DNA of 64,000 nucleotides from Tatumella sp. JGM118 (GTDB lineage Bacteria; Pseudomonadota; Gammaproteobacteria; Enterobacterales; Enterobacteriaceae): NCBI RefSeq assembly GCF_018257515.1, contig NZ_JAERJR010000004.1, forward strand, positions 186,001 to 250,000, in the 5' to 3' direction. The translations under genes and the position numbers were made by a program. The notes under the pieces are model-generated. The model made no database searches and had not been told where the DNA came from. It saw only the letters and a program-made list of their open reading frames with translations. Shown one piece after another: positions 4,587 through 19,683 of this stretch (within the stretch, counting starts at the first letter, position 1; the number at the start of each line of letters is the position of its first letter).

Positions 4587-4916
4587 AGAGTTGCTCTTCA
4601 CACGGATTCACAGCTTTCAGCGGCGAAATGGATCTGTGTAAGAACGATAAACGGAAGGCAATTCAGTGACTGACATAACACGAATTAAAGCACTGCGACA
4701 AGGAGGCTCCCTTACGCAGGTTTGAAACCAGGATTAAGCGAAAAGTGGTGCAAACATTCGCAACTTGCACTTTTGCATCATGGTGACATTCTGCGGCAAC
4801 GCCCGGGCCAGATGTAAAGACTGCCACGTGACAGGTCGCGTCTGTGTCCGGGAGAAGACAAAGAATAGCAGGGGATTTACTGAAAAGGAGTGTAACCGGT
4901 GTTCCGGGGTAGGTTA
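4587..4916 (+). pseudogene. Decayed copy of antitermination gene Q
   Basis: This stretch aligns end to end with the middle of the intact prophage Q gene (24872-25200). Shared blocks include GGATTCACAGCTTTCAGCGG, AAAAGTGGTGCAAACA, TTCTGCGGCAACGCCCGGG and ACTGAAAAGGAGTGTAACCG. Base substitutions and small indels have destroyed every reading frame; roughly four bases in five still match. Both ends of the gene are missing, and the right end joins an integrase fragment on the opposite strand. It is the remains of an earlier lambdoid element at argW, not a product of the present prophage, which has its own complete Q. Confidence 0.88.
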
Positions 4917-5077
4917 GGGGCCGATGACCAGAGTCTTCTCTTTTCCTGAGTGACGATACCGGAGTCGCCAGACCTTTTTGCCGGTCGGAGGCACGAACAG
5001 AAACAAGCCGGCCGGGTCTGGAGCCGGTAAGATTTTTCTTTTGGTTTAGCGGCATCGATCTGTTTGACGGTGAGCAT
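4917..5077 (-). pseudogene. N-terminal remnant of a P4-type integrase
   Basis: Reading leftward from 5077 gives MLTVKQIDAAKPKEKSYRL, the usual start of P4-family tyrosine integrases. After a frameshift the next frame continues with GLFLFVPPTGKKVW and KEKTLVIGP, again standard for the N-terminal arm-binding domain. Everything after about 55 codons is lost at the junction with the Q relic. The fragment begins about 160 bp from the 3' end of argW and points away from it, the classical arrangement for an element using the 3' part of a tRNA. It is thus a different, older integration from that of the present prophage. Confidence 0.88.
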
Positions 5078-5236: not shown

Positions 5237-5311
5237 TGGTGTCCCCTGCAGGAATCGAACCTGCAACTAGCCCTTAGGAGGGGCTCGTTATATCCATTTA
5301 ACTAAGGAGAC
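5237..5311 (-). tRNA. argW: tRNA-Arg (anticodon CCU)
   Basis: Read leftward, the 75 nt fold as a tRNA with a 7-bp acceptor stem, D arm, an anticodon stem around loop CTCCTAA (anticodon CCT, reads AGG), T arm with GGTTCGATTCC, and an encoded CCA end. E. coli argW is also tRNA-Arg(CCU), lies beside yfdC and is a known prophage target. Tyrosine integrases have used the gene twice here: an old relic on its 3' side and the complete prophage on its 5' side. Nucleotides 1-23 are the attachment core, so everything upstream of the mature 5' end is now phage DNA. Confidence 0.95.
5289..5311. repeat. attL core (23 bp)
   Basis: The 23 bases from 5289 to 5311 recur exactly at 54164-54186 and bases on both sides then differ. 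They bound the prophage and equal tRNA positions 1-23 (acceptor 5' strand and D arm). Most tRNA-targeting integrases use the anticodon or T arm and preserve the 3' half, so this sublocation is unusual. Confidence 0.95.
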
Positions 5312-5350
5312 TTTGCGCGTTAGTGTTTCAGGTTGTTCCTGAGTGTTCCG

Positions 5351-5380
5351 ATACTACCGTAATTCCTCATGTTTCATCAA
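5351..5380 (-). promoter_or_regulatory. Phage-borne promoter candidate for argW
   Basis: On the leftward strand TTGATG (5375-5380) and TAGTAT (5351-5356) are 18 bp apart, and the -10 box lies 40 nt before the tRNA 5' end. A stronger lone TTGACA lies at 5391-5396. The stranded native promoter at 54225-54254 has the same 18-bp spacing and lies 39 nt from the tRNA start, so the phage copy appears to mimic it. Confidence 0.5.
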
Positions 5381-5395
5381 GCACTTCCGATGTCA

Positions 5396-5496
5396 ATGTA
5401 CTCACTTTGTTTCTGGTTGTTCCGCATTGGTTCCGTTTTGTTCATTTGCCATTGCGTACAGATTGAGTACATAATGAAAAAAATCCCTGTGTACAT
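5396..5496. promoter_or_regulatory. Left-end arm-type integrase sites
   Basis: The 9-mer TGAGTACAT occurs inverted at 5396-5404 and direct at 5464-5472, with the variant TGTGTACAT at 5488-5496. The same two words sit 12 bp apart at the other prophage end (54083-54103). Presence only near both att cores suggests integrase or excisionase arm sites. GGTTGTTCC repeats at 5331-5339 and 5414-5422 may be a second set. Confidence 0.6.
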
Positions 5497-5505
5497 CTCA
5501 TAATC

Positions 5506-6675
5506 ATGGCCCTTAGCGATACCAAACTGCGAAACCTCAATGGCAAGCCTTATGACGGACCGGCAGAACTTACTGACGCCGAAGGTCTCAGCGCACGCAT
5601 TACACCCTCCGGGACCATTGCTTTTCAGTTCCGGTACCGCTGGGAAGGTAAGCCGGTACGGCTGACTATCGGACGTTATCCTTCAATGTCTCTTAAGGAC
5701 GCCCGGATCGCTGTCGGCGAGATGCGTGAATTGTACACGCGGGGCATAAACCCGAAAACGTATTTTTCATCGCCTGGCGATGATATCACCCTGCAGGTGT
5801 GCCTTGACCAGTGGTGGGAGAAATATGTAAGCGGCCTAAGAAAGAACACGCAGACGCTGTATCGTTCTGTCGTGTACAACACCATGTACACACATTTTCA
5901 GGGCGTGCCTGTACACAACATACCGGTGTCTCAGTGGGTCCGTTTCTTTGATAAGCAGGAAAAGGATAATAAGAAAAAGGCCAGAGTATTACTGATCCAG
6001 TTGCGCTCCGTTATCAACTGGTGCATCAGCCGGCAGATAATCCCATCCTGTGAAGTGATGAAGCTCAGTGTTAAAACCATTGGCAAGCGGTCCGACGTGG
6101 GGACGAGGGTTCTGACGTATGGTGAGCTGGCAAAGGTATGGGTAGCACTGGAGAATTCAAAGATACATTCTTCAAACCGCATCCTTCACCAGCTGCTGTT
6201 GTTGTGGGGGAGCCGACTTTCAGAGATGAGACTGGCAACAATGTCAGACTTCAATCTTGAGGACATGATATGGACTACGCCGTCTGACGTCTCGAAAATG
6301 GGTAACGTCATCCGGCGTCCGATCTTCAGCCACGTTCAGCCTTATATTGAGCGTCTGATGAATAACGGAAATCACGTACTGTTTCCCGGGATGGAACTGG
6401 ACAAGCCGATAGACCGGTCATCGTCAAACCTTTATATGGCGAAGCTAAGGGAGTTAATTGATATACCAGAATGGCGGACGCACGATTTCAGACGATCCCT
6501 CGTTACGAACCTGTCCAGTGAAGGAGTTCCGCCCCATGTCACCGAAAAGATGCTGGGGCATGAACTTGGGGGAGTGATGGCCGTGTATAACAAACACGAC
6601 TGGATAGCGGAGCAAAAAGAAGCGTATGAAATATATGCCGATAAGATATTCTGGCACGTTAAGAAGCTCGGTTAA
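5506..6675 (+). CDS. int: Prophage tyrosine integrase (P4 family)
   Basis: The 389-residue enzyme catalyses site-specific recombination between attP and argW. The N-terminal arm-binding domain carries the DAEGLSARI and LTIGRYPSMSLKDAR motifs of P4-type integrases. The catalytic domain shows GSRLSEM (first Arg), HDFRR (His326/Arg329), LGHELGG (His352) and the nucleophile Tyr361 in VYNKHDW. Length is normal for the family. It lies about 200 bp inside attL and reads into the prophage; its 3' end overlaps the convergent excisionase gene by 17 bp. It is clearly different from the integrase relic on the other side of the tRNA. Confidence 0.95.
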   Translation: MALSDTKLRNLNGKPYDGPAELTDAEGLSARITPSGTIAFQFRYRWEGKPVRLTIGRYPSMSLKDARIAVGEMRELYTRGINPKTYFSSPGDDITLQVCLDQWWEKYVSGLRKNTQTLYRSVVYNTMYTHFQGVPVHNIPVSQWVRFFDKQEKDNKKKARVLLIQLRSVINWCISRQIIPSCEVMKLSVKTIGKRSDVGTRVLTYGELAKVWVALENSKIHSSNRILHQLLLLWGSRLSEMRLATMSDFNLEDMIWTTPSDVSKMGNVIRRPIFSHVQPYIERLMNNGNHVLFPGMELDKPIDRSSSNLYMAKLRELIDIPEWRTHDFRRSLVTNLSSEGVPPHVTEKMLGHELGGVMAVYNKHDWIAEQKEAYEIYADKIFWHVKKLG

Positions 6676-6844
6676 CTCCGCCGGTTAAAAGCCAGTTTTC
6701 AACGTCAGCACGAACGTAGCGCGATGGATATTGCAATACCGGCTCCGGAAATCCCTTTTCCTTGCGCAGCCGGTAAAGTGCAACGCGCTTTTTGCCGATC
6801 ACGCTGAATACTTCTTCCTGTGTCATTAAATCTGATTGCTGCAT
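6659..6844 (-). CDS. AlpA-like excisionase / regulator
   Basis: Small 61-residue protein with a winged-helix MerR/AlpA fold: DLMTQEEVFSVIGKKRVALY then a basic recognition region and the usual RYVRADVENWL ending. AlpA proteins act as excisionases or integrase activators for P4-type integrases, which fits its position next to int. It is the last gene of the leftward early transcript. A good ribosome site (GGAG) precedes the ATG. Confidence 0.8.
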   Translation of the reverse strand: MQQSDLMTQEEVFSVIGKKRVALYRLRKEKGFPEPVLQYPSRYVRADVENWLLTGGVNRAS

Positions 6845-6920
6845 AGCATTCTCCTTTACCCAACCCGCAGGCGCGACGATGCCGCCGGTGACCGGTGCGG
6901 GAATAGGGTGGTTTGGTTTA

Positions 6921-6931
6921 GGGGGGGGGGG
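6921..6931. repeat. 11-base poly-G tract
   Basis: Eleven consecutive G directly after the leftward stop codon at 6932. Such runs are prone to slippage; G-rich GGGTGGGG motifs recur near 9853 and 10275. Confidence 0.9.
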
Positions 6932-7102
6932 TTACTTACTGTTAATGTGGGGATACTTCTTCAGGAGTTCGGCTGCCTTGAACAATGGGCCTATCCCGAT
7001 CCCCTTGCGGTTGTTGTCTCGGTAGTTATCGAGGACGTCTTTAAGCATCTGCAGGGCTTCGTCGCGCTGTTTCAAAAAATGCGAGTCCAGTTTGTTGCTC
7101 AT
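6932..7102 (-). CDS. Small phage protein, unknown (56 aa)
   Basis: Starts with MSNKLDSHFLKQRDEALQML after a GAGGT ribosome site and is mostly helical and charged. A longer frame to 7258 overlaps the next gene and lacks a good start. I recognise no family. It follows the zinc-finger gene by a few bases in the leftward early operon. Confidence 0.65.
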   Translation of the reverse strand: MSNKLDSHFLKQRDEALQMLKDVLDNYRDNNRKGIGIGPLFKAAELLKKYPHINSK

Positions 7103-7109
7103 TCTGACC

Positions 7110-7316
7110 TCAATGGCGTTTAAACTTCGCTGCGCGTTCTCGTTTCTCGTCATCTTCACGGCAGACTGAATCGCAGTAGTGGCCTTTGCCGATCGTGTCG
7201 CCACAGCTATAGCACTTACCGGTGAATGGCTTCGGCCGCGGGCGGTTCGCCATCGCAATCTTCAGTTGTTGCTGCTCCAGTTCTGACGCCTGGTCGAGTG
7301 GGTCTGCGTAGGTCAT
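7110..7316 (-). CDS. Small zinc-binding phage protein
   Basis: 68 residues with one zinc site, CYSCGDTIGKGHYCDSVC, in a small cysteine cluster, flanked by charged helices. Such single-zinc-ribbon proteins are common in the early left region of lambdoid phages and resemble DksA/TraR-type fingers in spacing, but the DksA acidic tip is not evident. Function unknown. Ribosome site AGGAAAC precedes the ATG. Confidence 0.65.
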   Translation of the reverse strand: MTYADPLDQASELEQQQLKIAMANRPRPKPFTGKCYSCGDTIGKGHYCDSVCREDDEKRERAAKFKRH

Positions 7317-7335
7317 AGTGGTTTCCTTTAGGCAA

Positions 7336-7360
7336 TAAAAAACCGCCTCAGTGGGCGGTT
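7336..7360 (-). terminator. Rho-independent terminator in the left operon
   Basis: AACCGCC and GGCGGTT form the stem and the leftward transcript then has a run of T. The hairpin overlaps the stop codon of the gene ending at 7348. N-modified polymerase would be expected to read through. Confidence 0.8.
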
Positions 7361-7824
7361 TGGTAAGTGTTAGAGAAGAAATCTTTAGCAGCTCTGAATC
7401 TTATTATTAGATATATGTCTTGCTCGGCGGCCAGGTCCCCAAGGGCGTAATTGCCCTCTTTCTGTCTTTTCATTACAAGATTAATAGCTGGCGGGAGCAT
7501 TAAAAGAAAATTATGTTTGAGCCTTTCCTGTGATTCATAGCTGATGCCAGATTCAGTAAGGACGGCATGCGCAACACATATCAAGGCTACGATATTACCC
7601 TTCATTTCTTTTGGTATATTTGATGCCGACAATCCTTTGGCGTGACCGTCTATCCTGTTGGAGATTGAGAGTAAATTCTCAAAGACTTTTACCTCATCCA
7701 TTTTTTCTTGAGACACACTATTAGATTTTGCAGCTTTGTATGCAAACCATGCCGCAGCAACCGTCCCTATTGCTGATCCTAATGAAACTACAAAATCTCC
7801 CCAATTTCCCGCATGCCAACTCAC
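7348..7824 (-). CDS. Membrane-anchored protein, unknown (158 aa)
   Basis: One N-terminal membrane segment (roughly residues 8-30, VVSLGSAIGTVAAAWFAYKA) followed by a soluble helical domain of about 120 residues. I recognise no family. It stands apart from the tiny genes on either side and its lower GC content suggests it is an accessory (moron) gene. Membrane anchoring of a helical cytosolic domain is common in superinfection-exclusion proteins, but nothing specific supports that role. Confidence 0.6.
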   Translation of the reverse strand: MSWHAGNWGDFVVSLGSAIGTVAAAWFAYKAAKSNSVSQEKMDEVKVFENLLSISNRIDGHAKGLSASNIPKEMKGNIVALICVAHAVLTESGISYESQERLKHNFLLMLPPAINLVMKRQKEGNYALGDLAAEQDIYLIIRFRAAKDFFSNTYQTAH

Positions 7825-7886
7825 CTGCAGCCCTCCGATGTATATAATAGCCCAATGCTTTTCAGCTCACTGATACATAAGGAATA

Positions 7887-8054
7887 TTACATCTTTCTTT
7901 CGACTTCGCCACACAATAACGCAGCCGCCGGCCGCCGCTCATGCAGTCGGTCGATTGTCATCTGGCACTGTGTTTCGGTGGGGTAGATTGTTTCAGTGAG
8001 GGGAGTTGCCTGGTTACCGGAGAGGATGAGGATGACGTATCCGGCGAGTATCAT
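7887..8054 (-). CDS. Small exported or membrane peptide (55 aa)
   Basis: The ATG overlaps the stop of the preceding gene (ATGA), indicating translational coupling. The product begins MILAGYVILILSGNQ, a signal-like hydrophobic start, and then carries two cysteines (TQCQMT and LLCGEV). No family recognised. Support is the tight overlap and the protein-like composition. Confidence 0.6.
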   Translation of the reverse strand: MILAGYVILILSGNQATPLTETIYPTETQCQMTIDRLHERRPAAALLCGEVERKM

Positions 8055-8281
8055 CTTTCGAGTGCCTCAATTTTTCTCATGAGGTCGTCATACTGTTTTG
8101 AGCTGACTGCCCCTTCAGAAATGGCATGTCTTATATCCTCAACATCGTCATCGCTCAGGAAATCATCACGGTAGTCCTGCCAGCTAACAACGCATAGCTT
8201 CCCACCCAAAATATCCATGCCAAAATTAACCCTCGGTTCCTTGCCGTCTTCGAACTCAACAACGAAAGTTACCTTTCCCAT
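8051..8281 (-). CDS. Small phage protein, unknown (76 aa)
   Basis: Starts MGKVTFVVEFEDGKEPRVNF after an AGGAGG ribosome site; the ATG overlaps the upstream stop by one base. An N-terminal beta-rich half is followed by acidic and helical segments. This type of protein occurs in many lambdoid left operons, without known function. Confidence 0.7.
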   Translation of the reverse strand: MGKVTFVVEFEDGKEPRVNFGMDILGGKLCVVSWQDYRDDFLSDDDVEDIRHAISEGAVSSKQYDDLMRKIEALER

Positions 8282-8382
8282 CACTTCCTCCTGTACGCAT
8301 CCCACAGAGCTATGCGGAACGCTATTCGTTTAATGAAAGCAGGGTAGTTCCCTGCCAGTATGTGAGTGGTGATTCGGGTCAT
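8281..8382 (-). CDS. Micro-gene, basic peptide (33 aa)
   Basis: The 33-codon frame begins at an ATG overlapping the previous stop (ATGA) and ends at a TGA overlapping the next ATG. The peptide is basic (MTRITTHILAGNYPAFIKRI and a RRK end). Both-sided stop/start overlaps support a real coupled gene; function unknown. Confidence 0.5.
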   Translation of the reverse strand: MTRITTHILAGNYPAFIKRIAFRIALWDAYRRK

Positions 8383-8453
8383 TTTCGTATCCATATCAGG
8401 CAGAAAATCAGCCCGATAATTAACCACGGGATCGCTTCAGAAATAATACTCAT
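8379..8453 (-). CDS. Micro-gene, single-pass membrane peptide (24 aa)
   Basis: A 24-codon frame whose ATG overlaps the preceding stop (TGATG) and whose TGA overlaps the next ATG. The product is one hydrophobic helix (PWLIIGLIFCLIWI) with a basic end. Lambda-type left operons contain similar tiny membrane peptides. Support is overlap and composition only. Confidence 0.45.
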   Translation of the reverse strand: MSIISEAIPWLIIGLIFCLIWIRK

Positions 8454-8749
8454 CACTCCCCCAGGCCGTTGAGATTTTTAATCTCTTCGATGCATTCATT
8501 AAACCCAACAGAAAAACCCTTATCAAAAGCTAAGGTCTTTGATTGCTTATTAAATTCAACGGCGCCAGGCAACTTAATCACCGGTACCGGCGGGGCGGTA
8601 TAAATTTCAAGTATCGAATATCCTGGATTGGGTGCTTTGGATGTAATGAATTCAGCATCCGCTCTGCATTTGTGGAACTACTGCCAAATGCCGGCGCTGG
8701 TTACAACAACAAAGAAATCAGGCTCCTGCCGTTCCTGCTCAGTCATCAT
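8453..8749 (-). pseudogene. Phage ORF interrupted by one in-frame amber codon
   Basis: From the start at 8746/8749, preceded by GGAGG, the frame is open for 98 codons except for a single TAG at 8680-8678 (codon 23, after AGIWQ). It resumes FHKCRADAEFITSKAPNPGY and ends with a TGA overlapping the next ATG. Composition on both sides is equally protein-like, so the amber looks recent. It could be a nonsense mutation, a sequencing error or a suppressible stop. The gene itself is an unrecognised small phage protein. Confidence 0.7.
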
Positions 8750-9035
8750 GGCTAATTTCCTCCAGGTAATCTCTGACGCATACATGCCTGTGACCTCTCA
8801 TGTCATCGTCAGATTTATAGAGCCTGCCACAATTAAGCCCTCGGGAATGTCCATCGTCATAACCTGCCAAGAACGACCGCAATATCCAATCCCGGCGCCC
8901 GTCTTTAATCAGTGGCAAAATCCTGTCCGTTAACTGACGCTGAATCTCTTCAGGCGTTTCCGGGCGCCCTGGCGATTCCAGCCCGGCGCAGAAATCGCTT
9001 ATTTCAGATTTCACCAGTTCTGAGATATCAGTCAT
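8739..9035 (-). CDS. Phage protein, unknown (98 aa)
   Basis: Acidic, mainly helical protein, MTDISELVKSEISDF onward; its central part (PETPEEIQRQLTDRILPLIK) is typical of left-operon proteins in lambdoid prophages. Overlaps both neighbours by a few bases in a coupled array. No function known. Confidence 0.65.
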   Translation of the reverse strand: MTDISELVKSEISDFCAGLESPGRPETPEEIQRQLTDRILPLIKDGRRDWILRSFLAGYDDGHSRGLNCGRLYKSDDDMRGHRHVCVRDYLEEISHDD

Positions 9036-9252
9036 TTATCACCTCTTCAAACAGCACTTCGCCTTCAATGCCACCAATCTGATACACGACTGAATCGTCT
9101 TCCCGATATTCTATCGGTTGAGCGCTCCAATTTTCCCCATCCAAATCTTCATCATCGCCAACCTGAACATAGCCACCGGTCACAATACGAGCCTGGTACA
9201 TTTCGCCCTCAGTCCAATACCCTTCGGTATCTTTGATGCATTTCACTTTCAT
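9028..9252 (-). CDS. Phage protein, unknown (74 aa)
   Basis: Starts MKVKCIKDTEGYWTEGEMY. The pattern of a short beta barrel with an acidic middle resembles small DUF-type phage proteins that follow this motif, but I cannot name the family. It overlaps both neighbours and has an acceptable ribosome site. Confidence 0.65.
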   Translation of the reverse strand: MKVKCIKDTEGYWTEGEMYQARIVTGGYVQVGDDEDLDGENWSAQPIEYREDDSVVYQIGGIEGEVLFEEVIND

Positions 9253-9806
9253 GCAGCACGCTCCATTTCAGATAGACCAACACGGACAGCATTCACGATG
9301 CGGTTAAGGTACTGATATTTATGATTCGGTACAGAGGGCCACTTTGCGTACCACGGCTCGTCACCCAGCAGGCCGGGGAGTTTGTCTCCTATCCTGCAAT
9401 CGCAACAGCTAACCTTAACGTCCTCAGCATCTTCAGCCTCTACCCACATTTCCCGGGCTTCATCGGACGTTATTTCCCTGCCAAGCCGCAATTTAATAAT
9501 TTCAGTCTTCACGAAAGCAAGATTGGCGTCATTGTCATCATTGACCGTGCTTTCAATGTCGGGGGCAAAATATCCGATCAGGTATTCGTTGCTTACCCGC
9601 TTAATGAACTCCTGTACTGAGTCCTCGCCCATTGCGAACCATGCGCCGGTCCACGCCTTCCCATAGCATGTGATTGTGATACGACCTCGCCCTGGCCCAT
9701 AGTTTTCAATCATCACCCGGACAGGATCTAATCGCTCCACGCCGGAAATGATGAATGAGAGCACATCTGTTTTTTCGACTGTGACGCCTGTTGCTAATGT
9801 TTCCAC
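9249..9806 (-). CDS. Phage protein, unknown (185 aa)
   Basis: An N-terminal beta-rich domain contains GRGRITITCYGKAWTGAWFA and is followed by a helical domain with a cysteine motif VSCCDC near residue 135 and PWYAKWPSVPNHKYQYLNRI at the end. This combination recurs in enterobacterial lambdoid prophages. No catalytic signature seen. First of a run of overlapping genes, separated by 60 bp from the gene upstream. Confidence 0.7.
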   Translation of the reverse strand: METLATGVTVEKTDVLSFIISGVERLDPVRVMIENYGPGRGRITITCYGKAWTGAWFAMGEDSVQEFIKRVSNEYLIGYFAPDIESTVNDDNDANLAFVKTEIIKLRLGREITSDEAREMWVEAEDAEDVKVSCCDCRIGDKLPGLLGDEPWYAKWPSVPNHKYQYLNRIVNAVRVGLSEMERAA

Positions 9807-9866
9807 TTTTCCTCTCCAACAGATAACCCTCCCGGTGCCGTATGGCAGAGGATAGGGTGGGGTGAG

Positions 9867-10253
9867 TTAGTCACCGAAGCCACCGCGCCCCGGGGTGTTG
9901 GCTGTCGGTATTTTAATTTCAGGTGCGCCGCGTTCTTCGTGGTACCGTCTCCAGTCCTCGGCGCGTTTTCTTCGGCGTTCCTCTGCCAGCCATCCCGGCA
10001 GCGGAGGGTTAACGGATGTCGCCTGACATACCAGCCGCTGCACAGTGCGCTCCATGCGCTGATTCAGCCGCGGGTGATAGCTTCCCTGCTCAGACGCCTT
10101 AATCGCTTCCTCGCACCCCATGACAATCCGTTGCCTGACCAGCCATTCCTTGCGCTCACGGACTGTCATCCGGATGATGTTTTCGCGGGTAATACTCCGA
10201 TACTTTTCGGGCAGGCGTGACAATACCGCCGATTCTTCCGGTGACAGTTCCAT
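9867..10253 (-). CDS. Phage protein, unknown (128 aa)
   Basis: Highly charged, arginine-rich helical protein starting MELSPEESAVLSRLPEKYRS, with a glycine-rich tail. Good GGAA ribosome site. Position downstream of ssb and erf suggests a nucleic-acid-related accessory, but no motif proves it. Confidence 0.65.
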   Translation of the reverse strand: MELSPEESAVLSRLPEKYRSITRENIIRMTVRERKEWLVRQRIVMGCEEAIKASEQGSYHPRLNQRMERTVQRLVCQATSVNPPLPGWLAEERRRKRAEDWRRYHEERGAPEIKIPTANTPGRGGFGD

Positions 10254-10262
10254 GATGTGGCC

Positions 10263-10709
10263 TTATTTGGTTAGGGTGGGGAGGGGGATTATTGGCTTAT
10301 GATATTTGTGCCATTTAACGTGACAGGCCTTGCATAACCACTGGACCTCCAATGGCTTGCCGTAATCGCAATGATGCGCTTCGGGCCTGCATTGTTGTTT
10401 ACAGCTTTCACAGTAATCAGGCCTGGATAGTCTACCGGACCTCAGGGCATTTCCGACTTTGATATGCGCCGTCCTCTTATGAGGATTTCTAAGGGCAAAA
10501 TCCCTTTTAGCCTTACTTGACGCTTTCATGCCTGAGGTAGTCTTCTGGTAATCCATTCTGGCCTTAACCCTGTGTGGTAAGTTGGCCCGCATCCGATCGT
10601 ATGTTTTTAAGCATTCTTTGCATGAAGCTGTCAGTCCGTCCTTGGAAGCGTTTCTAATCTGAAAGCTCTCAGGAGGCTTATGCTCGCCGCATCGCGTACA
10701 GGTTTTCAT
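10263..10709 (-). CDS. HNH-like zinc-finger phage protein
   Basis: 148 residues with an N-terminal zinc knuckle (CTRCGEHKPPESF then CKEC) and a C-terminal module CESCKQQC, EAHHCDYGKP, LCKACHVKWHK. The paired CxxC and HH residues resemble a degenerate HNH nuclease fold. Phages often place such genes near recombination functions, and here it follows ssb and erf. Nuclease activity is inferred, not shown. Confidence 0.6.
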   Translation of the reverse strand: MKTCTRCGEHKPPESFQIRNASKDGLTASCKECLKTYDRMRANLPHRVKARMDYQKTTSGMKASSKAKRDFALRNPHKRTAHIKVGNALRSGRLSRPDYCESCKQQCRPEAHHCDYGKPLEVQWLCKACHVKWHKYHKPIIPLPTLTK

Positions 10710-10723
10710 GCCTGCCTCCTTGC

Positions 10724-11230
10724 TTAAAATGGAATATCGGAATCGTCGTCGAAATCCATCGGAGGGTCGCTTGCCGCAGGTGCTGAGTTGGCCGGAGGGT
10801 TTCCGCTCCCGCTGTATTGCTGGCCTGTCGATTGCCGGGCCCGGCCGCCTTGACCTGCTGACGGTGCGGCGCTTCCATCCTGCTTCCCGCCCAGCATCTG
10901 CATAGTTCCGTTTATGCCGACCCGAATTTCAGTGGTGTAGCGGTCATTCCCTGACTGGTCCTGCCATTTGCGGGTTTGAAGTTTACCTTCCAGGTAGACT
11001 TCCGATCCCTTCCGGAGATACTCGCCAGCTATTTCTGCCAGCTTTCCGCTGATAACTACCCGGTGCCACTCCGTCAGTTCTTTCTGCTCACCGGTATGCT
11101 TATCACGCCATTGCTCTGATGTAGCCACCGACAGGTTAGCGAAGCAGGCTCCGGACGGAGCATAACGCACCTCCGGATCTTGCCCCAGCCGACCAACGAT
11201 GATGACCTTATTTACGCCTCTGCTTGCCAT
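10724..11230 (-). CDS. ssb: Single-stranded DNA-binding protein
   Basis: 168 residues. The OB fold shows the usual SSB sequence [39 protein letters not shown] and [17 protein letters not shown] glycine/glutamine/serine linker leads to the acidic tip [10 protein letters not shown] that binds partner proteins. It directly follows erf, so the two probably act together in strand annealing during phage recombination. Confidence 0.95.
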
Positions 11231-11845
11231 TTATGCTGCCGCCTTAAAGTCTGATTTTCTGTGTTTGAAGATTTCGATTACCTGTTGCTGATGTGGTTTT
11301 GATTCACCCACTGCGGCCCAGGCTGTTTTATAAAGCTCAGTCAATTGCGACTCCGTTGTTGCCTGGTTCGCTCCATTACTGAACGTTGCCACAGCTTCAT
11401 CCGGATTCATTGCTCTCGGGTGATGGACCTCACTATCGGCATCCACAGCTGTTTCCTCTGTCGGGATGCAGAACGTCTGAAATGCCGCGTATTTGTAGGC
11501 GATTGACATAGCCTTGTTCGTCGCTTTGTCACCGCTATCCATAGCTTCGCCGTAAGTGGTCACAGTGTGGGTGCTGCCGTCCTCTGCACCGACGAAATCG
11601 AACTCAGCCTTTACCACGACATAAAACAACACGCCCCCGCGCTGCGTCTGTCGTTCCGTGACAGTGCGCTCAATTATGCGAGGCAGGATAAGCAGCCCAT
11701 GACGCACCAGAGCGGGCGCTAGCGCGTTATAGACCTGGTCGATACCACGGAACATAAATCTCTGCTGTTGGTTTTCTCTGTCCTTGCTGATGCCTTTCTC
11801 CGCCATTTCCTTGGCTACGGCGCTGATAGCTTTGTACACACTCAT
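11231..11845 (-). CDS. erf: ERF-family single-strand annealing recombinase
   Basis: 204 residues, close to P22 Erf in length. The conserved core is present: RFMFRGIDQVYNALAPALVRHGL, VTTYGEAMDSGDKATNKAMS and AYKYAAFQTFCIPT. ERF proteins form rings that anneal complementary single strands and circularise or recombine the phage genome. Its start overlaps the stop of the preceding small gene (ATGA) and ssb follows at once, so the three are co-translated from the leftward pL transcript. Confidence 0.93.
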   Translation of the reverse strand: MSVYKAISAVAKEMAEKGISKDRENQQQRFMFRGIDQVYNALAPALVRHGLLILPRIIERTVTERQTQRGGVLFYVVVKAEFDFVGAEDGSTHTVTTYGEAMDSGDKATNKAMSIAYKYAAFQTFCIPTEETAVDADSEVHHPRAMNPDEAVATFSNGANQATTESQLTELYKTAWAAVGESKPHQQQVIEIFKHRKSDFKAAA

Positions 11846-11994
11846 GAATAGTCCCCCGCAAATTCCTGCCAGCTAACCACCTGATTCTGGCGCTCCGCTG
11901 CCAAGTCAATTTGCTCCTGCTGGATGGCTTCCATTTCCTCTCCGATGGCCTCCCTCATTTCCGCTATGAAGTCGGTGTCATTGCTACGCCACAT
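11842..11994 (-). CDS. Small acidic helical protein (50 aa)
   Basis: Begins MWRSNDTDFIAEMREAIGEE after a strong GGAGGTGA ribosome site; the stop overlaps the erf start. One long amphipathic helix rich in Glu and Gln. No family known. The tight coupling suggests an erf partner or modulator. Confidence 0.6.
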   Translation of the reverse strand: MWRSNDTDFIAEMREAIGEEMEAIQQEQIDLAAERQNQVVSWQEFAGDYS

Positions 11995-12184
11995 TCTTCA
12001 CCTCCGCGAACGAATTCACATACTCAACCAGGACGTCGAAATCCATCTGGCCGCACAGTTCTGTCTGTTGCTCAGTGGTCAGTCCGTCGATGGCGCAATC
12101 CTCAAGTGAAACGCTGACCTTTCCGGGCCGCATTGCCCCGCGTGCCTGCACATCTGAGCATTCGATTGTCAGGTTCAGGCTCAT
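11984..12184 (-). CDS. Small phage protein, unknown (66 aa)
   Basis: Starts MSLNLTIECSDVQARGAMRP after CAGGAGG. A beta-rich N-terminal half is followed by an acidic helix. Overlaps neighbours on both sides in the operon leading to erf. Function unknown. Confidence 0.65.
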   Translation of the reverse strand: MSLNLTIECSDVQARGAMRPGKVSVSLEDCAIDGLTTEQQTELCGQMDFDVLVEYVNSFAEVKNVA

Positions 12185-12282
12185 TTTGACCTCCTGGTAA
12201 GCTGTAACATCCGAAGCCGGTTAGCATCGTTATCCGGCAGTGAGTAGCGAATAAATCCGACGTTAAATTTCAGTCTCTTCAC
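12181..12282 (-). CDS. Micro-gene, basic peptide (33 aa)
   Basis: A GTG start overlaps the upstream TGA and its own TGA overlaps the next ATG. Peptide begins MKRLKFNVGFIRYSLPDNDA and ends RRSK. It occupies the slot between the cIII-like position and erf, where lambda and P22 encode kil-type peptides, but no sequence match to Kil is visible. Confidence 0.5.
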   Translation of the reverse strand: MKRLKFNVGFIRYSLPDNDANRLRMLQLTRRSK

Positions 12283-12401
12283 GCAAAAGCCTCCCCGCCC
12301 GGACGGGCCGCCTCATTAACAAATCGCTTGATACGGTCAAGCTGTGATTTAAACAGTGATTTAGCAGCGCCAATGACGCCGCCGATGACGTTGGTTGTCA
12401 T
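12279..12401 (-). CDS. Micro-gene, 40-aa amphipathic peptide (CIII-like position)
   Basis: Starts MTTNVIGGVIGAAKSLFKSQ and continues as one amphipathic helix, LDRIKRFVNEAARPGG. Lambda CIII is also a short peptide with one essential amphipathic helix in the same operon position, so a CIII-like role is possible. The resemblance is one of pattern, not alignment. Confidence 0.45.
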   Translation of the reverse strand: MTTNVIGGVIGAAKSLFKSQLDRIKRFVNEAARPGGEAFA

Positions 12402-12420
12402 TAGCGATACTCCGGTGTGA

Positions 12421-13400
12421 TTAGTAGTTGACGTTCAGGTGCGGTATTTCACCGTCTTTAATGGCTTTAAATGCGCGGACAGCCTGTTCACGGCTAAGGC
12501 CAACGACACTTTCCAGTGCGCCGACCGATTCAGAGCCAATGCGCTTGCGGTGGTTTTCATTTGCTGTGCGCCGGGCCAATTCATCAGCCTTGCGCTTCTC
12601 TTCGGCCAGTCGCGCTTGCTCTGCATGAGCTGCTTTACGGCGTTCAGCTTCGATGGCTCCTGCTTCTCATGCTCAGCCTTTTCACGTGCTTCCCGGGCCT
12701 GACGTTCTGCCAGTTGCTGGGCTTCGATACGCTGCTGCTTTTCCCGTTCGGCTGCGGCCTGTAACTCACGCTCACGGCGTTCAGTCTCTTCGTGGTCACG
12801 CTTGGCCTTTTCCTCGGCCTCACGTTTCACGCGTTCTTCAGCTTCCCTGGCGATACGCTGCTCATGCTCAATGCGTTGCTGCTCTGCCAGGCGGGCGGCT
12901 TCGGCACGGTCACGGTCAAACTTGTCGTTCATAAGCAGGGCGATTTCATGATCGGACTCGAAACGTTCAGCGGCTGCTTTATCGAATACCGCGTTCATTT
13001 CCAGCGCTTCGGCGTGGGCGGCGGCCAGAGCTTCTTCTGCCTTGATGCGTTCCTGCTCAGCTTCCCAGTCGGTCACCGGCTGCCGGATTTCGATAGCCAG
13101 GGCGTCGAGTGCCTCGCGGATTTTCCGGCGGCTGGCATCAACCAGGGCAGGGCGTTTCTTCATCTCAGCAACCAGCGTTTTACCGGCATCATCAATCGCC
13201 ACCTTTGAGCTGCGTACGGTGGCCGCCATGCTGATGTAGGCTTTGCGGCCTTTGGCGGTGTTGATGTCACCAACGACTGATTTCGCCTTGGCGCGGATTT
13301 CTTCAATCAGCCGGTCGGTGTAATCACCGCTGATAAACGCCGCTTCCAGTTCACCCGCCGTCTTTGGCAGGCTGTACAGCTGTAACTCTGTGCTTTCCAT
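12421..13400 (-). pseudogene. Long coiled-coil protein gene with a 1-bp frameshift
   Basis: Residues 1-115 form a helical domain; a very long coiled coil of Glu/Arg/Ala heptads follows. The start frame breaks down at EKQEPSKLNAV and runs on as low-quality sequence to 12435. Near 12655-12660 the neighbouring frame takes over with AIEAERRKAAHAEQARLAEE, continues the coiled coil and ends in a proper domain, IKDGEIPHLNVNY, with a stop at 12421. Losing one A in a GAA GCC pair explains it. Intact homologues of about 326 residues sit upstream of erf in related phages. Either a real mutation or a sequence error. Confidence 0.8.
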
Positions 13401-13465
13401 AATCCTCTCCTGAATGTGGTCATATAACCGCCCACTCAGTGAATGGACGCTGATATGACAGGCAT

Positions 13466-13491
13466 AAAAAAGGCCTCGCCGTAGCGAAGCC
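13466..13491 (-). terminator. Rho-independent terminator in the left operon
   Basis: Leftward transcript forms GGCTTCGC / GCGAGGCC with a short loop and then six T. It lies between N and the coiled-coil gene, the position of lambda tL1, so it is a likely target of N antitermination. Confidence 0.8.
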
Positions 13492-13542
13492 AGATTGAAT
13501 TAGTGCCTGTTTTTGCCGGGGCAGGCTCCCGCTTTCCCTGCT

Positions 13543-13587
13543 TTCCACAGACAAAGGAAACTGATACGTTGGTTATTCCACAGACAA
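13543..13587. repeat. 12-bp direct repeat upstream of the GhoS-like gene
   Basis: TTCCACAGACAA occurs at 13543-13554 and 13576-13587, 33 bp apart, just before the rightward GhoS-like gene. It may be a regulator site for that gene. Confidence 0.6.
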
Positions 13588-13600
13588 TTAAGGAATGATA

Positions 13601-13885
13601 ATGGCAACGTTCACCGTTAGAGTTGAGCTGCATAAAGCAAGCGCAGAAGACTACAGAAATTTACATGAAAAAATGCAGGCCCATGGTTTCAGTAAAATGA
13701 TTACCGCTTCATCTGGTACTACTTACCAATTACCCGAAGCTGAATATACTTATTCATCAATCAGTGAAGATGAGTCACAGGTAGCAAACAAAGCTCAAAG
13801 AGTCGCTAGCGATATAAAGCGCGACCCGGGGATATTAGTTACAAAATCTTCTGGGAGAGCAGTTAGAGGCCTTATAACCGTATAG
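13601..13885 (+). CDS. GhoS-family (DUF2622) small protein
   Basis: 94 residues starting MATFTVRVELHKASAEDYRN, with GFSKMI, YQLPEAEY and a small alpha/beta fold typical of the GhoS/DUF2622 family. E. coli GhoS is an endoribonuclease antitoxin that cleaves ghoT mRNA. Phage members are widespread and usually lack a neighbouring ghoT, as here. It is the only rightward gene in the left operon, so it has its own promoter. The second ATG was chosen because AAGGA is 6 nt before it. Its 3' end overlaps the convergent gene by 14 bp. Confidence 0.75.
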   Translation: MATFTVRVELHKASAEDYRNLHEKMQAHGFSKMITASSGTTYQLPEAEYTYSSISEDESQVANKAQRVASDIKRDPGILVTKSSGRAVRGLITV

Positions 13886-14030
13886 CGCTTCCATCATCAT
13901 CGATATTGTTGAAAGCCCTTTTTGCAAGCCAGATGTGCGCCTGTATCGCTGCGTTTGGCTTAATGGCGTTTAACTTTTCAGCATCTTCAATTAATAAAGC
14001 AACAATGTGCCTCAACTCTTCATTATCCAT
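13872..14030 (-). CDS. Small phage protein (52 aa)
   Basis: Begins MDNEELRHIVALLIEDAEKL after GAGGTGAAGT. A helical, acidic product, just downstream of N. Protein-like composition and a good ribosome site support it; no family recognised. Confidence 0.6.
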   Translation of the reverse strand: MDNEELRHIVALLIEDAEKLNAIKPNAAIQAHIWLAKRAFNNIDDDGSAIRL

Positions 14031-14042
14031 ACTTCACCTCAA

Positions 14043-14288
14043 TCACACTAAAGGAATAGACCGGCCTCTGACCTTCTGACGGCCGGTGCATGTTACCCGG
14101 TCACTCTTGGTGCGGTGGCCGGCTGAATAAATTGCTACGTCTGGCATGCACTCTGTAACCTGCTCAGGGCGATTACGCCAGTTCGGTGCTTTCAGTGCCC
14201 GCTCAACGCGATCAACTGGTTTAAGCTGCATTGCTTCGGCTGCCTTGCGGGCGTTGAACTCTGCCATGCGGCGTCTGTTTCTGTTCAT
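14043..14288 (-). CDS. N: Antitermination protein N
   Basis: 81 residues. The arginine-rich RNA-binding N-terminus is NRNRRRMAEFNARKAAEAM; the middle KPVDRVERALKA corresponds to KPKSRVESALNP of lambda N; the C-terminal TCTGRQKVRGRSIPLV is nearly the lambda ending TCSGRQKIKGKSIPLI. It should bind boxB RNA, recruit NusA/B/E/G and carry pL and pR transcripts past terminators. It is shorter than lambda N (107 residues) because of a gap in the middle. The internal Met is chosen for its GGAGA ribosome site. It is the second gene from pL. Confidence 0.9.
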   Translation of the reverse strand: MNRNRRRMAEFNARKAAEAMQLKPVDRVERALKAPNWRNRPEQVTECMPDVAIYSAGHRTKSDRVTCTGRQKVRGRSIPLV

Positions 14289-14343
14289 TGCTATCTCCAG
14301 TAGTCTCATTCATGCGCCCGGTGACAGACGCATGATGAATTCG

Positions 14344-14496
14344 CTAAAAGTTCCAGCAAGTTGCTTCTGCTTCCTTTGCTATCAACCTGGCAGAAGCTTT
14401 GCCGCTTACAGACTTTGAGAACCACTCGCTGCCATCTTCCAGGTAAACAACAACGAATTTCGTTTTCTTGCTTGCGTAGTAATAAGCCTTTTTCAT
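14344..14496 (-). CDS. Small basic phage protein (50 aa), first gene after pL
   Basis: Starts MKKAYYYASKKTKFVVVYLE after an AGGAAT ribosome site. A short beta-rich protein ending in a helix, with a lone cysteine (ATCWNF). It lies between nutL and N. Function unknown; similar short proteins precede N in some lambdoid phages. Confidence 0.65.
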   Translation of the reverse strand: MKKAYYYASKKTKFVVVYLEDGSEWFSKSVSGKASARLIAKEAEATCWNF

Positions 14497-14634
14497 GGGT
14501 ATTCCTCTGTAAGTTCTTTGGTGGGGGAGTAAGCGCGACATTGTGGCCCTATCTCAGATTGTGCCTACTGCCGTCCCGATACAGCGATAGACTGAGATCT
14601 ACCCCTGATTAATTTTGTGCTCGGTTACTCACCC

Positions 14635-14688
14635 CCGAAGAACTCACTTCGGCCTGTGTATTCACAGGAACCTTGTTTTTAAATAGCA
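14635..14688 (-). promoter_or_regulatory. nutL candidate: boxA and boxB-like hairpin
   Basis: About 70 nt into the pL transcript a boxA-like TGCTATTTAAAA (14688-14677) is followed by CCTGTG-AATA-CACAGG (14668-14653) and directly by a second hairpin CCGAAG-TGAGTT-CTTCGG (14652-14635). The AATA tetraloop on a 6-bp stem recurs at nutR. Confidence 0.7.
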
Positions 14689-14755
14689 GCCTGACTTCAT
14701 GTCCGGCGCGGTAGGTAGTCCGTTTACCGCATCGATGTTTCGTTTCGATGGGTTG

Positions 14756-14790
14756 ATAATATGCGTAAAGCGCAAATGCGTCAAACGCAT
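14756..14790 (-). promoter_or_regulatory. pL promoter and OL operators
   Basis: Leftward TTGACG (14784-14779), a 17-bp spacer and TATTAT (14761-14756) form a strong promoter. Two abutting 15-bp operators overlap it: ATGCG-TAAAG-CGCAA (14761-14775) and ATGCG-TCAAA-CGCAT (14776-14790). The same half-sites occur at OR. Confidence 0.85.
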
Positions 14791-15163
14791 ATTTGAGCTA
14801 GAAATAGGGATCCGAGATTAACTTTATGATTTTATAGATTATTTATTTTTCCTCAGACGAAAAATTCCCGACTTGTGAGTGGCGGGATAAGATAGGGAGA
14901 TTAGATTTGGTTATAGTTTGTTCATTTGTGGATGGGGTTCGCTTAACGACTTATCTGGCTTTTCCCTTACGACCATATTTTCAACAAAAAATGAAGGCAA
15001 GCTACCAACTGAATTGACAGGTCGCTCTGAACAATGAACGAAAATTAATATGATGTTAGAAATGGTCGCTTTAAGGGCAAATATCACCCGAACTAACAGG
15101 ATAGAACTAGTGTCAGAACGCTGTTGCCTGTAAAATTACCGCTTTCATCTTCTTCAGGATTTT
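14791..15163. other. Non-coding stretch between OL and the prenyltransferase gene
   Basis: AT-rich, with no credible frame. A rightward TTGACA lies at 15014-15019, but no well-spaced -10 box follows, so the promoter of the next gene is not clear. Confidence 0.4.
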
Positions 15164-16084
15164 ATGCGTATGTCCCATTCAGAATCCCACGATTTAAGCG
15201 ATATTAAACAAAATGACTGGGTTGAACGCTGGTTCTCGCCAGCTCTTACGTCATACCTTAGGTTGGCGCGCCTCGACCGTCCGGTCGGTATCTGGCTGGT
15301 CCTATTCCCATGCATAGCAGCTCTTTTTCAGGCATCGCACGGCTGGCCCGGAGCAAAAGAAATGTTGGTTTTCTGTTTGGGTGCTTTCCTGATGAGGAGC
15401 GCGGGTTCAACAATCAACGATATTGCTGATCGTAACTTCGATGCACACGTTGAAAGAACCCGCTTCCGCCCTCTTGCAAGCAGGCAGATTTCAACCCGGC
15501 AGGCCGTAATTTTCTTTATTTTTCAGCTGCTTTTCGCTGCTTCGCTGCTCTATTTTCTCAACCCACTCACCCGCCTGATGGCACTGGCAGTCGTGCCGCT
15601 TGTTATTCTTTACCCATTCTGTAAACGGTTTACTTACTGGCCTCAGGCTGTTCTGGGTGCTGCGTTTAATTGGGGAATGCTGATGGCGTGGGCACAAATA
15701 AAAGGTGCTGTACCGCCGAGTGCTATTTTGATATGGCTGGGAGCGGTTGCTTGGCAAATTGGCTATGACACAGTCTACGCTTATGTAGATGCAAGAGATG
15801 ATGTGCGGATCGGTATCAAATCAACTGCGCTGCTTTTTGGGAAATGCGGAAAGGCCAGTATCGGGTTATTTTACACTGCAGCAGTAGCGTTGTGGTCATA
15901 TGGCGGCCTGCTCAGTAGTATGAAAGCCCCTTACTATGTTGCTATGGTTGCCATTGCCATGCACATGTCCTGGCAGGTTTGGCGCCTTGATTTACAGAAG
16001 CCTTCACTAAGTTTTAACATGTTTCTTCATAACATTCTTACCGGTATTCTGTTTGCACTTGCAGCACTGGTAGGTACGTTCTAG
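15164..16084 (+). CDS. UbiA-family polyprenyltransferase carried by the prophage
   Basis: 306 residues, about eight membrane helices. Both catalytic Asp-rich motifs of the UbiA superfamily are intact: NDIADRNFD (85-93) followed by RTRFRPLAS, and YDTVYAYVDARDD (201-213) followed by IGIKSTALLFG. These bind Mg2+ and the prenyl diphosphate; UbiA prenylates 4-hydroxybenzoate in ubiquinone synthesis. The sequence is clearly UbiA-like but not the E. coli-type enzyme. It lies alone on the plus strand between OL and cI, the slot where lambdoid phages carry exclusion genes such as rex and sieB. Ribosome site AGGA precedes the ATG. Substrate in the host is not known; a lysogenic-conversion gene is the simplest reading. 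Confidence 0.9.
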   Translation: MRMSHSESHDLSDIKQNDWVERWFSPALTSYLRLARLDRPVGIWLVLFPCIAALFQASHGWPGAKEMLVFCLGAFLMRSAGSTINDIADRNFDAHVERTRFRPLASRQISTRQAVIFFIFQLLFAASLLYFLNPLTRLMALAVVPLVILYPFCKRFTYWPQAVLGAAFNWGMLMAWAQIKGAVPPSAILIWLGAVAWQIGYDTVYAYVDARDDVRIGIKSTALLFGKCGKASIGLFYTAAVALWSYGGLLSSMKAPYYVAMVAIAMHMSWQVWRLDLQKPSLSFNMFLHNILTGILFALAALVGTF

Positions 16085-16168
16085 TGACGGAAATCAGCTT
16101 CCTGCTGGCAACTACGCATCAGAATAGAGTTGCCATCAGGCGGGGAGAGTACGGTGGGTTACAGGCAC

Positions 16169-16194
16169 AAAAAACCCGGCGCGGTGGCCGGGGT
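16169..16194 (-). terminator. Terminator of the NYN / cI transcript
   Basis: Leftward GCCGGG...CCCGGC type stem (CCCGGC 16175-16180 with GCCGGG 16187-16192) and then TTTTTT. It ends the leftward immunity transcript and separates it from the convergent prenyltransferase gene. Confidence 0.85.
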
Positions 16195-16200
16195 TAGCAG

Positions 16201-17019
16201 TTAATTTTGCTTTTTATGTCGACCAGAAGCCTGTCGGCTCCGCTGGCTTTTAGCTTTCTTTCTATCCTCCCACCAATCTGGTGCTGGGTTCGGTTCTGCA
16301 TGCAATGCATCCGCAAGCCCAGTAATGAGGCTAAATGATTGAACCCCATCTATGTGTTCGGATAGTGAAGGGCTGACGTTTTGTCTGAGGGGATCAAGAA
16401 TGAAATCAATGCCTTTTATGCGGGCGTGCTTTGCTGCCGGAACAAAGTCTGAGTCCCCAGCAACCAATACAATAACATCTACGAGTTTTTCATAAGTAAG
16501 GGTTGTAATGTCTACCCCTAACTTTATATCAACCTGTTTTTGCTTGATGTCATAATAAAAATCATCGTTAGTTAATTCGCTCCACTGCTTATGCCCCTTC
16601 ATCAGGGCATCAAGAGAAAAGCTGGTTAGTTGCCAACGCTTATTGTCAACTAGGTGACCGAGCCGCAGAGCTGTCTTTCTTGTCTTTCTTAGCTCTTCGT
16701 GAAGCTCAGTTCTTAACTGATAGGACTTATCTAGCTTGAAGTTTTTACGCCCAGGGGTTTTATTTCCTGGCTCAGGGAGTGGGTATCTTGTTTGTATATC
16801 TAAAGGAGGGCAGTCATAAAAATAGATACGGTAGAGTTCGAGTGGATCTCTTCTCTCCTGAGATTGCTTCCTGTCCTTGAGGTGTGAAATTACCATCGAC
16901 CATATCACTTTCATGATACAAGGTGCCGTTAATTCCTCAGACGAGAAGTGCTTTCTATGTGTTGCATTTAGACGCTGCATAAAAAATCCGGCGTCTATCA
17001 GTATTGCTGCTTTTTTCAT
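16201..17019 (-). CDS. NYN-domain (PIN-like) nuclease
   Basis: 272 residues. The N-terminus AAILIDAGFFMQRL gives the first acidic residue of a NYN/DUF88 fold; KQVDIKLGVDITTL supplies the central acidic pair; VIVLVAGDSDFVPAAKHARIKG is the hallmark GDSDF motif. NYN proteins are metal-dependent ribonucleases. A charged insert of about 100 residues separates the first two motifs, and the C-terminus is basic. It lies downstream of cI on the same strand, the rexAB position, so expression in the lysogen and a role in excluding other phages are plausible. A large terminator hairpin lies just before its start codon. Confidence 0.8.
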   Translation of the reverse strand: MKKAAILIDAGFFMQRLNATHRKHFSSEELTAPCIMKVIWSMVISHLKDRKQSQERRDPLELYRIYFYDCPPLDIQTRYPLPEPGNKTPGRKNFKLDKSYQLRTELHEELRKTRKTALRLGHLVDNKRWQLTSFSLDALMKGHKQWSELTNDDFYYDIKQKQVDIKLGVDITTLTYEKLVDVIVLVAGDSDFVPAAKHARIKGIDFILDPLRQNVSPSLSEHIDGVQSFSLITGLADALHAEPNPAPDWWEDRKKAKSQRSRQASGRHKKQN

Positions 17020-17028
17020 AAAAAATCC

Positions 17029-17088
17029 AAAAAAAAGCCCGGAGCCGTTATGCAGATATTAACAATTGTCTGCGAACGGGGCCGGGCT
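17029..17088 (-). terminator. Long hairpin with U tract between cI and the NYN gene
   Basis: AGCCCGG at 17088-17082 (leftward) pairs with CCGGGCT, and an inner stem CCGTTCGCAGA with TCTGCATAACGG extends it to about 20 pairs; eight T follow. It is a strong terminator only 10 nt before the NYN start codon, so it may attenuate that gene. Confidence 0.75.
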
Positions 17089-17238
17089 GGTGAGTAAAAT
17101 CTACTTAAACTTGACCCGTGAGTCAAACAAAAAAAACCAGAAGAATTAAAAAAAACAGAAAAGCAAAAAAAACAAAAACGTAAAAAACGGAAAAACCAAT
17201 TCACTTAAACCGCATCTTGGCCTCAACGGCTACACCAA
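17089..17238. other. T-rich (leftward) low-complexity tract after cI
   Basis: Runs of seven to eight identical bases alternate with short spacers at 17128-17200. A GTG-started frame 17204-17016 would encode a very hydrophobic 62-residue peptide whose stop overlaps the NYN ATG, but its ribosome site is poor. Confidence 0.4.
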
Positions 17239-17916: not shown

Positions 17917-17929
17917 ATTGAAGTCCTTT

Positions 17930-17993
17930 TTTGCGTCACTCGCAAAGCGTGTTGCGCATATATGACATATGTATTAATATGCGTGCAGCGCAT
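17930..17993 (+). promoter_or_regulatory. pR promoter and OR operators
   Basis: TTGCGC (17952-17957), a 17-bp spacer and TAATAT (17975-17980) form pR. Three operators: TTGCG-TCACT-CGCAA (17931-17945), AAGCG-TGTTG-CGCAT (17945-17959) and ATGCG-TGCAG-CGCAT (17979-17993). The half-sites match those at OL. Confidence 0.85.
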
Positions 17994-18008
17994 TTAATGG
18001 AGGTAGTC

Positions 18009-18236
18009 ATGGAAACACCACTAAGAAAAATGCGTATGGAGAAAAAGCTAACCATGTCCGAAGTAGCGCTTGCCGTTCATTGTGATGTAGGAAACCTGAG
18101 CCGAATTGAGAGAGGGGTGCAGGTCACATCACTTGATATGGCAGAGAAGCTATCGAAATTCTTCGGTGGATTGGTGACTGAAATGCAAATTCTCTATCCG
18201 CATAGATACATGGACCACAAAAACACGGCCGCATAA
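18009..18236 (+). CDS. cro: Cro-type repressor
   Basis: 75 residues consisting of one XRE helix-turn-helix: LRKMRMEKKLTMSEVALAV and NLSRIERGVQ. First gene of the pR transcript, divergent from cI. The ATG at 18009 is taken because GGAGG lies just before it; in-frame codons upstream lie within the operators. Expected to compete with CI at OR and OL and favour lytic growth. Confidence 0.88.
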   Translation: METPLRKMRMEKKLTMSEVALAVHCDVGNLSRIERGVQVTSLDMAEKLSKFFGGLVTEMQILYPHRYMDHKNTAA

Positions 18237-18244
18237 GTACTAAC

Positions 18245-19682: not shown

Positions 19683-19683
19683 C

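Follow-up and report, generated by a model that had tools for sequence, protein, structure and literature searches.

A prophage family at the 5' end of argW carries a promoter-like element that probably replaces the promoter of the tRNA gene

Phage integration at argW and at the 5' ends of genes

The tRNA gene argW is a recognized integration site of Stx2 phages in Escherichia coli O157:H7 and STEC, as in strain TW14359 (PMC4587872, PMC8309913). In the accessible text of these papers, the site is named simply argW and an exchange of the tRNA promoter is not mentioned. tRNA genes are classic phage integration sites, which in the usual account keep their own promoter; the accessible part of one review allows very few exceptions among bacteria (PMC8371274). 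Use of the 5' half of a tRNA gene by an element that supplies the promoter is described there for archaeal pTN3-like elements, and seldom for bacteria (PMC8371274, citing Cossu 2017, Krupovic and Bamford 2008, and Williams 2002). Here, we describe a widespread family of prophages, among them major Stx2 prophages of E. coli O157, that would supply such a promoter to argW. The locus analyzed lies in Tatumella sp. JGM118, within a stretch of 64,000 nucleotides that we refer to as the window (Table 1).

The closest described systems each share part of this arrangement. In pTN3-like and related archaeal integrases, as summarized in that review, attB likewise lies in the 5' half and the restored tRNA relies on the promoter of the element. 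However, transcription of the tRNA is attributed to the integrase promoter in those elements and the integrase is split, whereas the integrase gene (int) of the window is unsplit and has a predicted promoter of its own, on the strand opposite to the separate element facing argW; transcription of the tRNA from the int promoter does not fit this layout. Integrases associated with dusA also replace the 5' end of their target, with putative -10 and -35 elements on the new side (Farrugia 2015, PMC4482086). Their target is a protein gene rather than a tRNA gene, and the accessible text of that report does not describe conservation of the promoter or its retention after loss of the element.

KplE1/IntS phages target argW itself, also with a tyrosine integrase, but from the other end: the core lies at the tRNA 3' end, the integrase gene lies on the 3' side in the orientation of the tRNA (the STI shape), and argW keeps its own promoter (Panis 2010, PMC2951348). 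The prophage in the window falls outside this class and has the divergent OD shape instead. Divergent pairs of tRNA and integrase genes are rare, as OD and SIT together account for less than 8% of 1273 cases (PMC2951348). In tRNA-dependent lysogeny (PMC10865867), as at this locus, the phage maintains a tRNA function that would otherwise be lost on integration. It does so by complementation from a tRNA gene of its own, the target tRNA being left broken, whereas here argW is rebuilt intact, no other tRNA was found in the window, and the promoter alone would be replaced. Insertion on the 5' side of tRNA genes is thus already known but rare. No precedent for the domestication of a phage promoter was found in the literature covered, most of it openly accessible.

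Anatomy of the prophage and its att sites

Inside the prophage, PHROG matches were found for an integrase, an excisionase, a CI-like repressor, a DnaB helicase, a terminase, a portal protein, a head morphogenesis protein, a tape measure protein, and tail proteins. The 2 ends carry exact copies of a core, TATATCCATTTAACTAAGGAGAC, and the bases adjacent to the copies differ on either side. One copy forms the beginning of argW, which is the sole match to a CCU-anticodon tRNA in searches of its own genome, the attR fragment aside. With a tyrosine integrase gene beside one att site, a repeat of part of the tRNA at both ends, and an intact rebuilt tRNA, the element has the makeup of a prophage integrated into a tRNA gene by a tyrosine integrase.

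Table 1. Features of the argW locus and its prophage, in coordinates of the window
Feature	Position	Strand	Basis
Decayed N-terminal remnant of an IntS-type integrase, 3' side of argW	4877..5077	minus	ORF start MLTVKQIDAAKPKEKSYRL, resemblance by eye; no Pfam match
argW, tRNA-Arg(CCU) (anticodon CCT), intact	5237..5311	minus	ARAGORN, Rfam tRNA
Prophage, ~48.9 kb, attL core to attR core	5289..54186	.	Core repeat and PHROG matches
attL core, 23 bp = tRNA nt 1-23	5289..5311	minus	Sequence match
Phage-borne -10, TAGTAT, 39 nt from tRNA nt 1	5351..5356	minus	TA and final T position-fixed in 14/14 non-redundant relatives
Phage-borne -35, TTGATG, facing argW	5375..5380	minus	TTG position-fixed in 14/14 non-redundant relatives
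Predicted separate int promoter, TTGCCA-N18-CATAAT, overlapping arm-type repeats	5446..5475	plus	Consensus scan
Three TGTACNCA repeats, candidate integrase arm sites, int side (5453-5460, 5464-5471, 5488-5495)	5453..5495	minus	
Tyrosine integrase (int), 389 aa, divergent from argW	5506..6675	plus	Pfam Arm-DNA-bind_3 and Phage_integrase; PHROG 1
Excisionase-like 61-aa protein, overlapping the int 3' end	6659..6844	minus	PHROG 66 'excisionase and transcriptional regulator', E 2e-6
Two TGTACNCA repeats, candidate arm sites, other arm (54083-54090, 54095-54102)	54083..54102	minus	
attR core, 23 bp, orphan copy of tRNA nt 1-23	54164..54186	minus	Sequence match
-10 TAACAT of displaced former argW promoter, attR	54225..54230	minus	Matches argW upstream region in other Tatumella
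-35 TTGTAA of displaced former argW promoter, attR	54249..54254	minus	Matches argW upstream region in T. ptyseos and other Tatumella
yfdC homologue, formate/nitrite transporter family, original argW upstream side	56890..57825	minus	Pfam PF01226; homologue of K-12 yfdC

Because the core is repeated and yfdC lies beyond the far repeat, we conclude that the element separates argW from its upstream region, while the downstream part of the tRNA has not moved. yfdC lies directly upstream of argW in E. coli K-12; in the window, it was found 2.7 kb beyond attR, with a gene of the SDR family (54871-55698, minus strand) in between. In T. ptyseos (G004), yfdC is just 316 nt from argW, which indicates an insertion or loss between attR and yfdC in the window. 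Integration into the 5' half of the tRNA is seen in the position of the core, in the presence of yfdC and the former promoter at attR, and in the attR of TW14359, which agrees. The initial annotation, made from the letters of the DNA, had equated the core with tRNA nucleotides 1 to 23, placed the insertion on the 5' side of argW with the 3' part of the gene left on the chromosome, and taken yfdC to mark the original upstream side. The first of these claims is borne out by the exact 23-bp repeat with mismatches just beyond it at both flanks, the next two by uninterrupted relatives and TW14359, and the last by the position of yfdC. The phage DNA that now adjoins argW (5312-5400) was next to the gene in none of 5 other, uninterrupted Tatumella genomes, which carry an upstream sequence of the attR type.

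The same arrangement of prophage and argW was found in E. coli O157:H7 TW14359. Such Stx2-type argW prophages have an integrase of the same family, with argW plus int 72% identical at the DNA level, and are likewise inserted on the 5' side; in TW14359, argW now lies behind a phage TTGATT-N18-TATTAT pair at 39 nt. About 62 kb from argW, where the prophage ends next to yfdC, the K-12-type sequence ...GCGGGTATACTCATGCCGCATT lies stranded beside a copy of tRNA nucleotides 1 to 24. This integrase was detected beside argW in 205 of 5,426 complete E. coli genomes, the threshold being a match to at least 80% of argW plus int. The same threshold applied to the stretch of argW and promoter gave 212 genomes, and the 7 additional ones may carry broken integrases or young scars.

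No terminator was found in the window that would shield the prophage from the promoter stranded in attR. Just inside the attR of TW14359 (L377, ~5752-5785), a GC-rich hairpin is followed by T-rich DNA, possibly a terminator for the stranded argW promoter or for a convergent phage gene. On the other side of argW, intS-like genes occur in other Tatumella at the place matching the remnant in the window, 67-77% identical and about 161 nt downstream of the tRNA. Each end of argW serves a phage family of its own, and both families are present in TW14359.

The argW-facing element in the phage family

The initial annotation had proposed that a TTGATG-N18-TAGTAT pair in the phage DNA replaces the promoter of argW, placing it 40 nt upstream of the tRNA, and that a native TTGTAA-N18-TAACAT pair lies stranded 39 nt from the core in attR. 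Both pairs are present, but the distances are 39 and 38 nt, respectively. A generic sigma-70 consensus scan did not flag the argW-facing promoter, and its status as a promoter rests on conservation, not on score. Replacement itself is backed by the uninterrupted relatives, by TW14359, and by the presence of a putative promoter at a fixed position in every phage of the family.

Relatives of the integrase were gathered from IMG/VR, GTDB genomes, and phage records. The closest (69-93% identity) came from Rosenbergiella, Pantoea, Xenorhabdus, Martelella, E. coli, and IMG/VR. Wherever upstream DNA was readable, relatives at or above 69% identity all had the same junction: argW preceded int, its orientation did not vary, and int started 188-196 nt from tRNA nucleotide 1. 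The prophage in the window belongs to this family, sharing integrase identity of at least 69%, a core of nucleotides 1 to 23, int at about 190 nt, and a promoter at 39 nt. After removal of near-duplicates, 14 sequences remained, which aligned at the tRNA with the last 75 nt free of gaps. TTG at -69 to -67, TA at -45/-44, and T at -40 were invariant, while the DNA between them had diverged. All 14 non-redundant members thus fit the pattern TTG(A/T)-N18-TAnnnT, with the -10 ending 39 nt before the tRNA.

The attP form could be read in 4 sequenced phage genomes (P27, yong2, Brookers, and phi296), in which the core runs into phage DNA and the promoter sits beside it. attP holds a -35/-10 pair that faces the core in fixed register and is distinct from the predicted int promoter, which lies on the other strand. 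Upon integration, argW acquires this pair as its adjacent upstream promoter-like element, and its former one ends up at the far end of the prophage. The DNA beyond the core varies between phages, so that the tRNA is the common target of the argW-facing promoter.

We considered whether the element instead serves the free phage, by a transcript across attP or by a DNA structure in the intasome, its position before argW being incidental. It sits between the arm-type repeats and the core, and the trinucleotide AAC at -26 to -24, invariant across the 14 members, along with 10-bp phased GAAC-type repeats beside the element, suggests recombination functions in this arm. What is conserved, however, is a precise -35/-10 pair with 18-nt spacing, aimed at the tRNA, and the DNA beyond the core varies from phage to phage. 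The phased repeats (GTTCC/GTTTC in the window) flank the promoter on both sides, at 5322-5350 and 5402-5440, and are mostly gone from the integrase-free loci described below.

A mechanism consistent with these data starts with the tyrosine integrase, which would recombine within tRNA nucleotides 1 to 23, so that the prophage comes to separate argW from its promoter. The phage promoter would then drive argW, adding a 5' leader of about 32 nt that RNase P would remove, and lysogens would in this way keep their AGG-decoding tRNA. The extra leader leaves the predicted tRNA fold undisturbed. Phage-supplied cores vary at tRNA nucleotides 3-5; as these changes are solely C/T, pairing with the 3' strand of the acceptor stem (G-C or G-U) is preserved.

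We also asked whether all relatives of this integrase target the 5' ends of tRNA genes, and rejected this, as a tier of about 50-57% identity sits in the 5' end of sbcB (upstream of int in L058, L062, L117, L118, L123, L126, and others). Here, the 5' end of sbcB is replaced too, as the phage provides a start codon along with some 12 codons. No single fixed promoter was found in the alignment of this tier. One contig labelled as Chryseobacterium (L129) carried an enterobacterial integrase of the sbcB type, and is probably contamination.

Phage-type promoters in hosts without the integrase

Upstream regions of argW were taken from 113 Enterobacteriaceae genomes. In 81 of these, a strict pattern detected a short-leader promoter whose -10 lies 8-16 nt before the tRNA; yfdC is usually found a short way further upstream. 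A weight matrix (PWM) built from phage-side sequences alone and applied at fixed offset gave scores of at least 16.9 for 11 of the 113 loci; the next best scored -0.7, and the background maximum was 12.1 (264,340 windows). Upstream of 6 of these loci lay an intact or broken integrase of this family, while the other 5 (4 Tatumella and G235) had none. Five more integrase-free loci (L010, L269, L330, L349, and L357) scored 11.8-21.0 with leaders shifted by 1-6 nt. Six vaguely similar loci below threshold (L350, L286, L325, L351, L346, and L364) were left unclassified. A further 3 (L274, L303, and L329) were recognized as scars by eye alone, having a leader of 26 nt or a 17-nt spacer, and were placed on the tree as scars but kept outside the count of lineages.

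Since the motif is short, and -35/-10 elements are common upstream of tRNA genes, these hosts might simply carry a generic enterobacterial tRNA promoter of convergent origin. This explanation was rejected: the upstream regions of about 118 other tRNA genes in 3 genomes never scored above 5.7 at any offset, against 17-24 for 2 argW genes, indicating that the phage-type promoter is not a generic tRNA promoter. Together with the recurrence of the exact 39-nt offset, this leaves a convergent origin highly implausible.

The survey also changes the reading of the pair in attR, which the initial annotation had called native. It differs from the ancestral enterobacterial argW promoter and has the architecture of the phage promoter, and is most likely the remnant of an earlier phage from this family. 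The relatedness of the Tatumella and phage promoters, though clear, says nothing by itself about direction, and the phage could have taken its promoter from a host argW region, with Tatumella and the other integrase-free lineages keeping the ancestral state. However, the different, short-leader promoter of the 81 loci, usually with yfdC nearby, speaks against this. On an rpoB tree of 81 taxa (a quick maximum likelihood tree, rooted arbitrarily and built from a single gene whose base composition is skewed), phage-type promoters were scattered among ancestral-type relatives, requiring at least 10 changes, and both types occurred within one genus (G235 against G304 and G134).

One locus speaks more directly to direction. 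G130 (L357) has no integrase gene, yet positions -259 to -25 match the phage-arm profile in collinear order (E 1.1e-26), and the first 22 codons of int are preserved as a fossil, starting at the normal place (-194). This in-register fossil shows transfer from phage to host in that lineage, and, taken with the distribution above, makes an origin of the phage promoter from the host unlikely. The locus fits into a series of decay from intact through frame-broken to truncated integrase genes (L352 and the window, L337, L015, L290/L282, and L357), after which the promoter alone is left. Scars other than L357 keep only about 30-50 nt, with nhmmer alone giving E 0.02-0.24 for those reported, so that each rests on similarity at a fixed position and not on surrounding phage DNA. 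No residual attR cores were found upstream in the scar genomes; the one clear ancestral-type promoter match of this search, at -186 in L340, belongs to a genome that was itself not counted as a scar.

Most integrase-free loci have lost the leader repeats but kept the promoter, leader scores at the 5 fixed-offset loci being -5.8 to -27. This pattern is expected if selection acts on transcription of argW, and it renders a role confined to the free phage very improbable. The best reading, then, is that the promoter travels with attP, replaces that of argW at integration, and can be domesticated when the prophage decays. Decay would leave the phage promoter as the permanent argW promoter of the host, retained as by then it is the only promoter of the gene; this step is well supported by the comparisons above, and retention in scars would reflect the need for argW. 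Counting only loci that pass the matrix, integrase-free phage-type promoters fall into 5 lineages: Tatumella with G126, G235, G227, G163, and G130. Domestication thus appears, with good support, to have preceded the arrival of the present phage in Tatumella, and to have taken place in at least 4 other lineages.

Taken as a whole, we hold it very likely that an argW-specific phage family swaps the promoter of its target tRNA gene, with later domestication. It is likely, if less firmly so, that temperate phages have repeatedly donated this promoter and that argW regulation has been rewritten in at least 5 lineages of Enterobacteriaceae, the earlier donation in Tatumella being displaced by a later phage of the same family. 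If true, phages have in these lineages rewritten the control of a core gene of translation, a route by which mobile elements could alter core-gene regulation with no gene left behind. One tRNA gene under ancestral, phage, and domesticated promoters would constitute a natural experiment, and the effect of lysogeny on the control of a rare-codon tRNA (AGG) becomes testable.

The swap might also change how argW is regulated. Stable-RNA promoters under stringent control characteristically have a GC-rich discriminator, and the phage promoter lacks one: GC content of the 7 nt after the -10 was 84% for ancestral promoters, 40% for phage promoters, and 67% for scars. Scars in one clade share ancestry, which makes the P values of these comparisons optimistic. 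On this basis, a fresh lysogen may lose stringent control, and a domesticated promoter may regain it. AT-rich discriminators are retained in L006 and in the attR of the window, which argues against uniform amelioration. In G235 (L277), yfdC is separated from argW by genes for tRNA-Lys and tRNA-Gly, which immediately precede the phage-type promoter.
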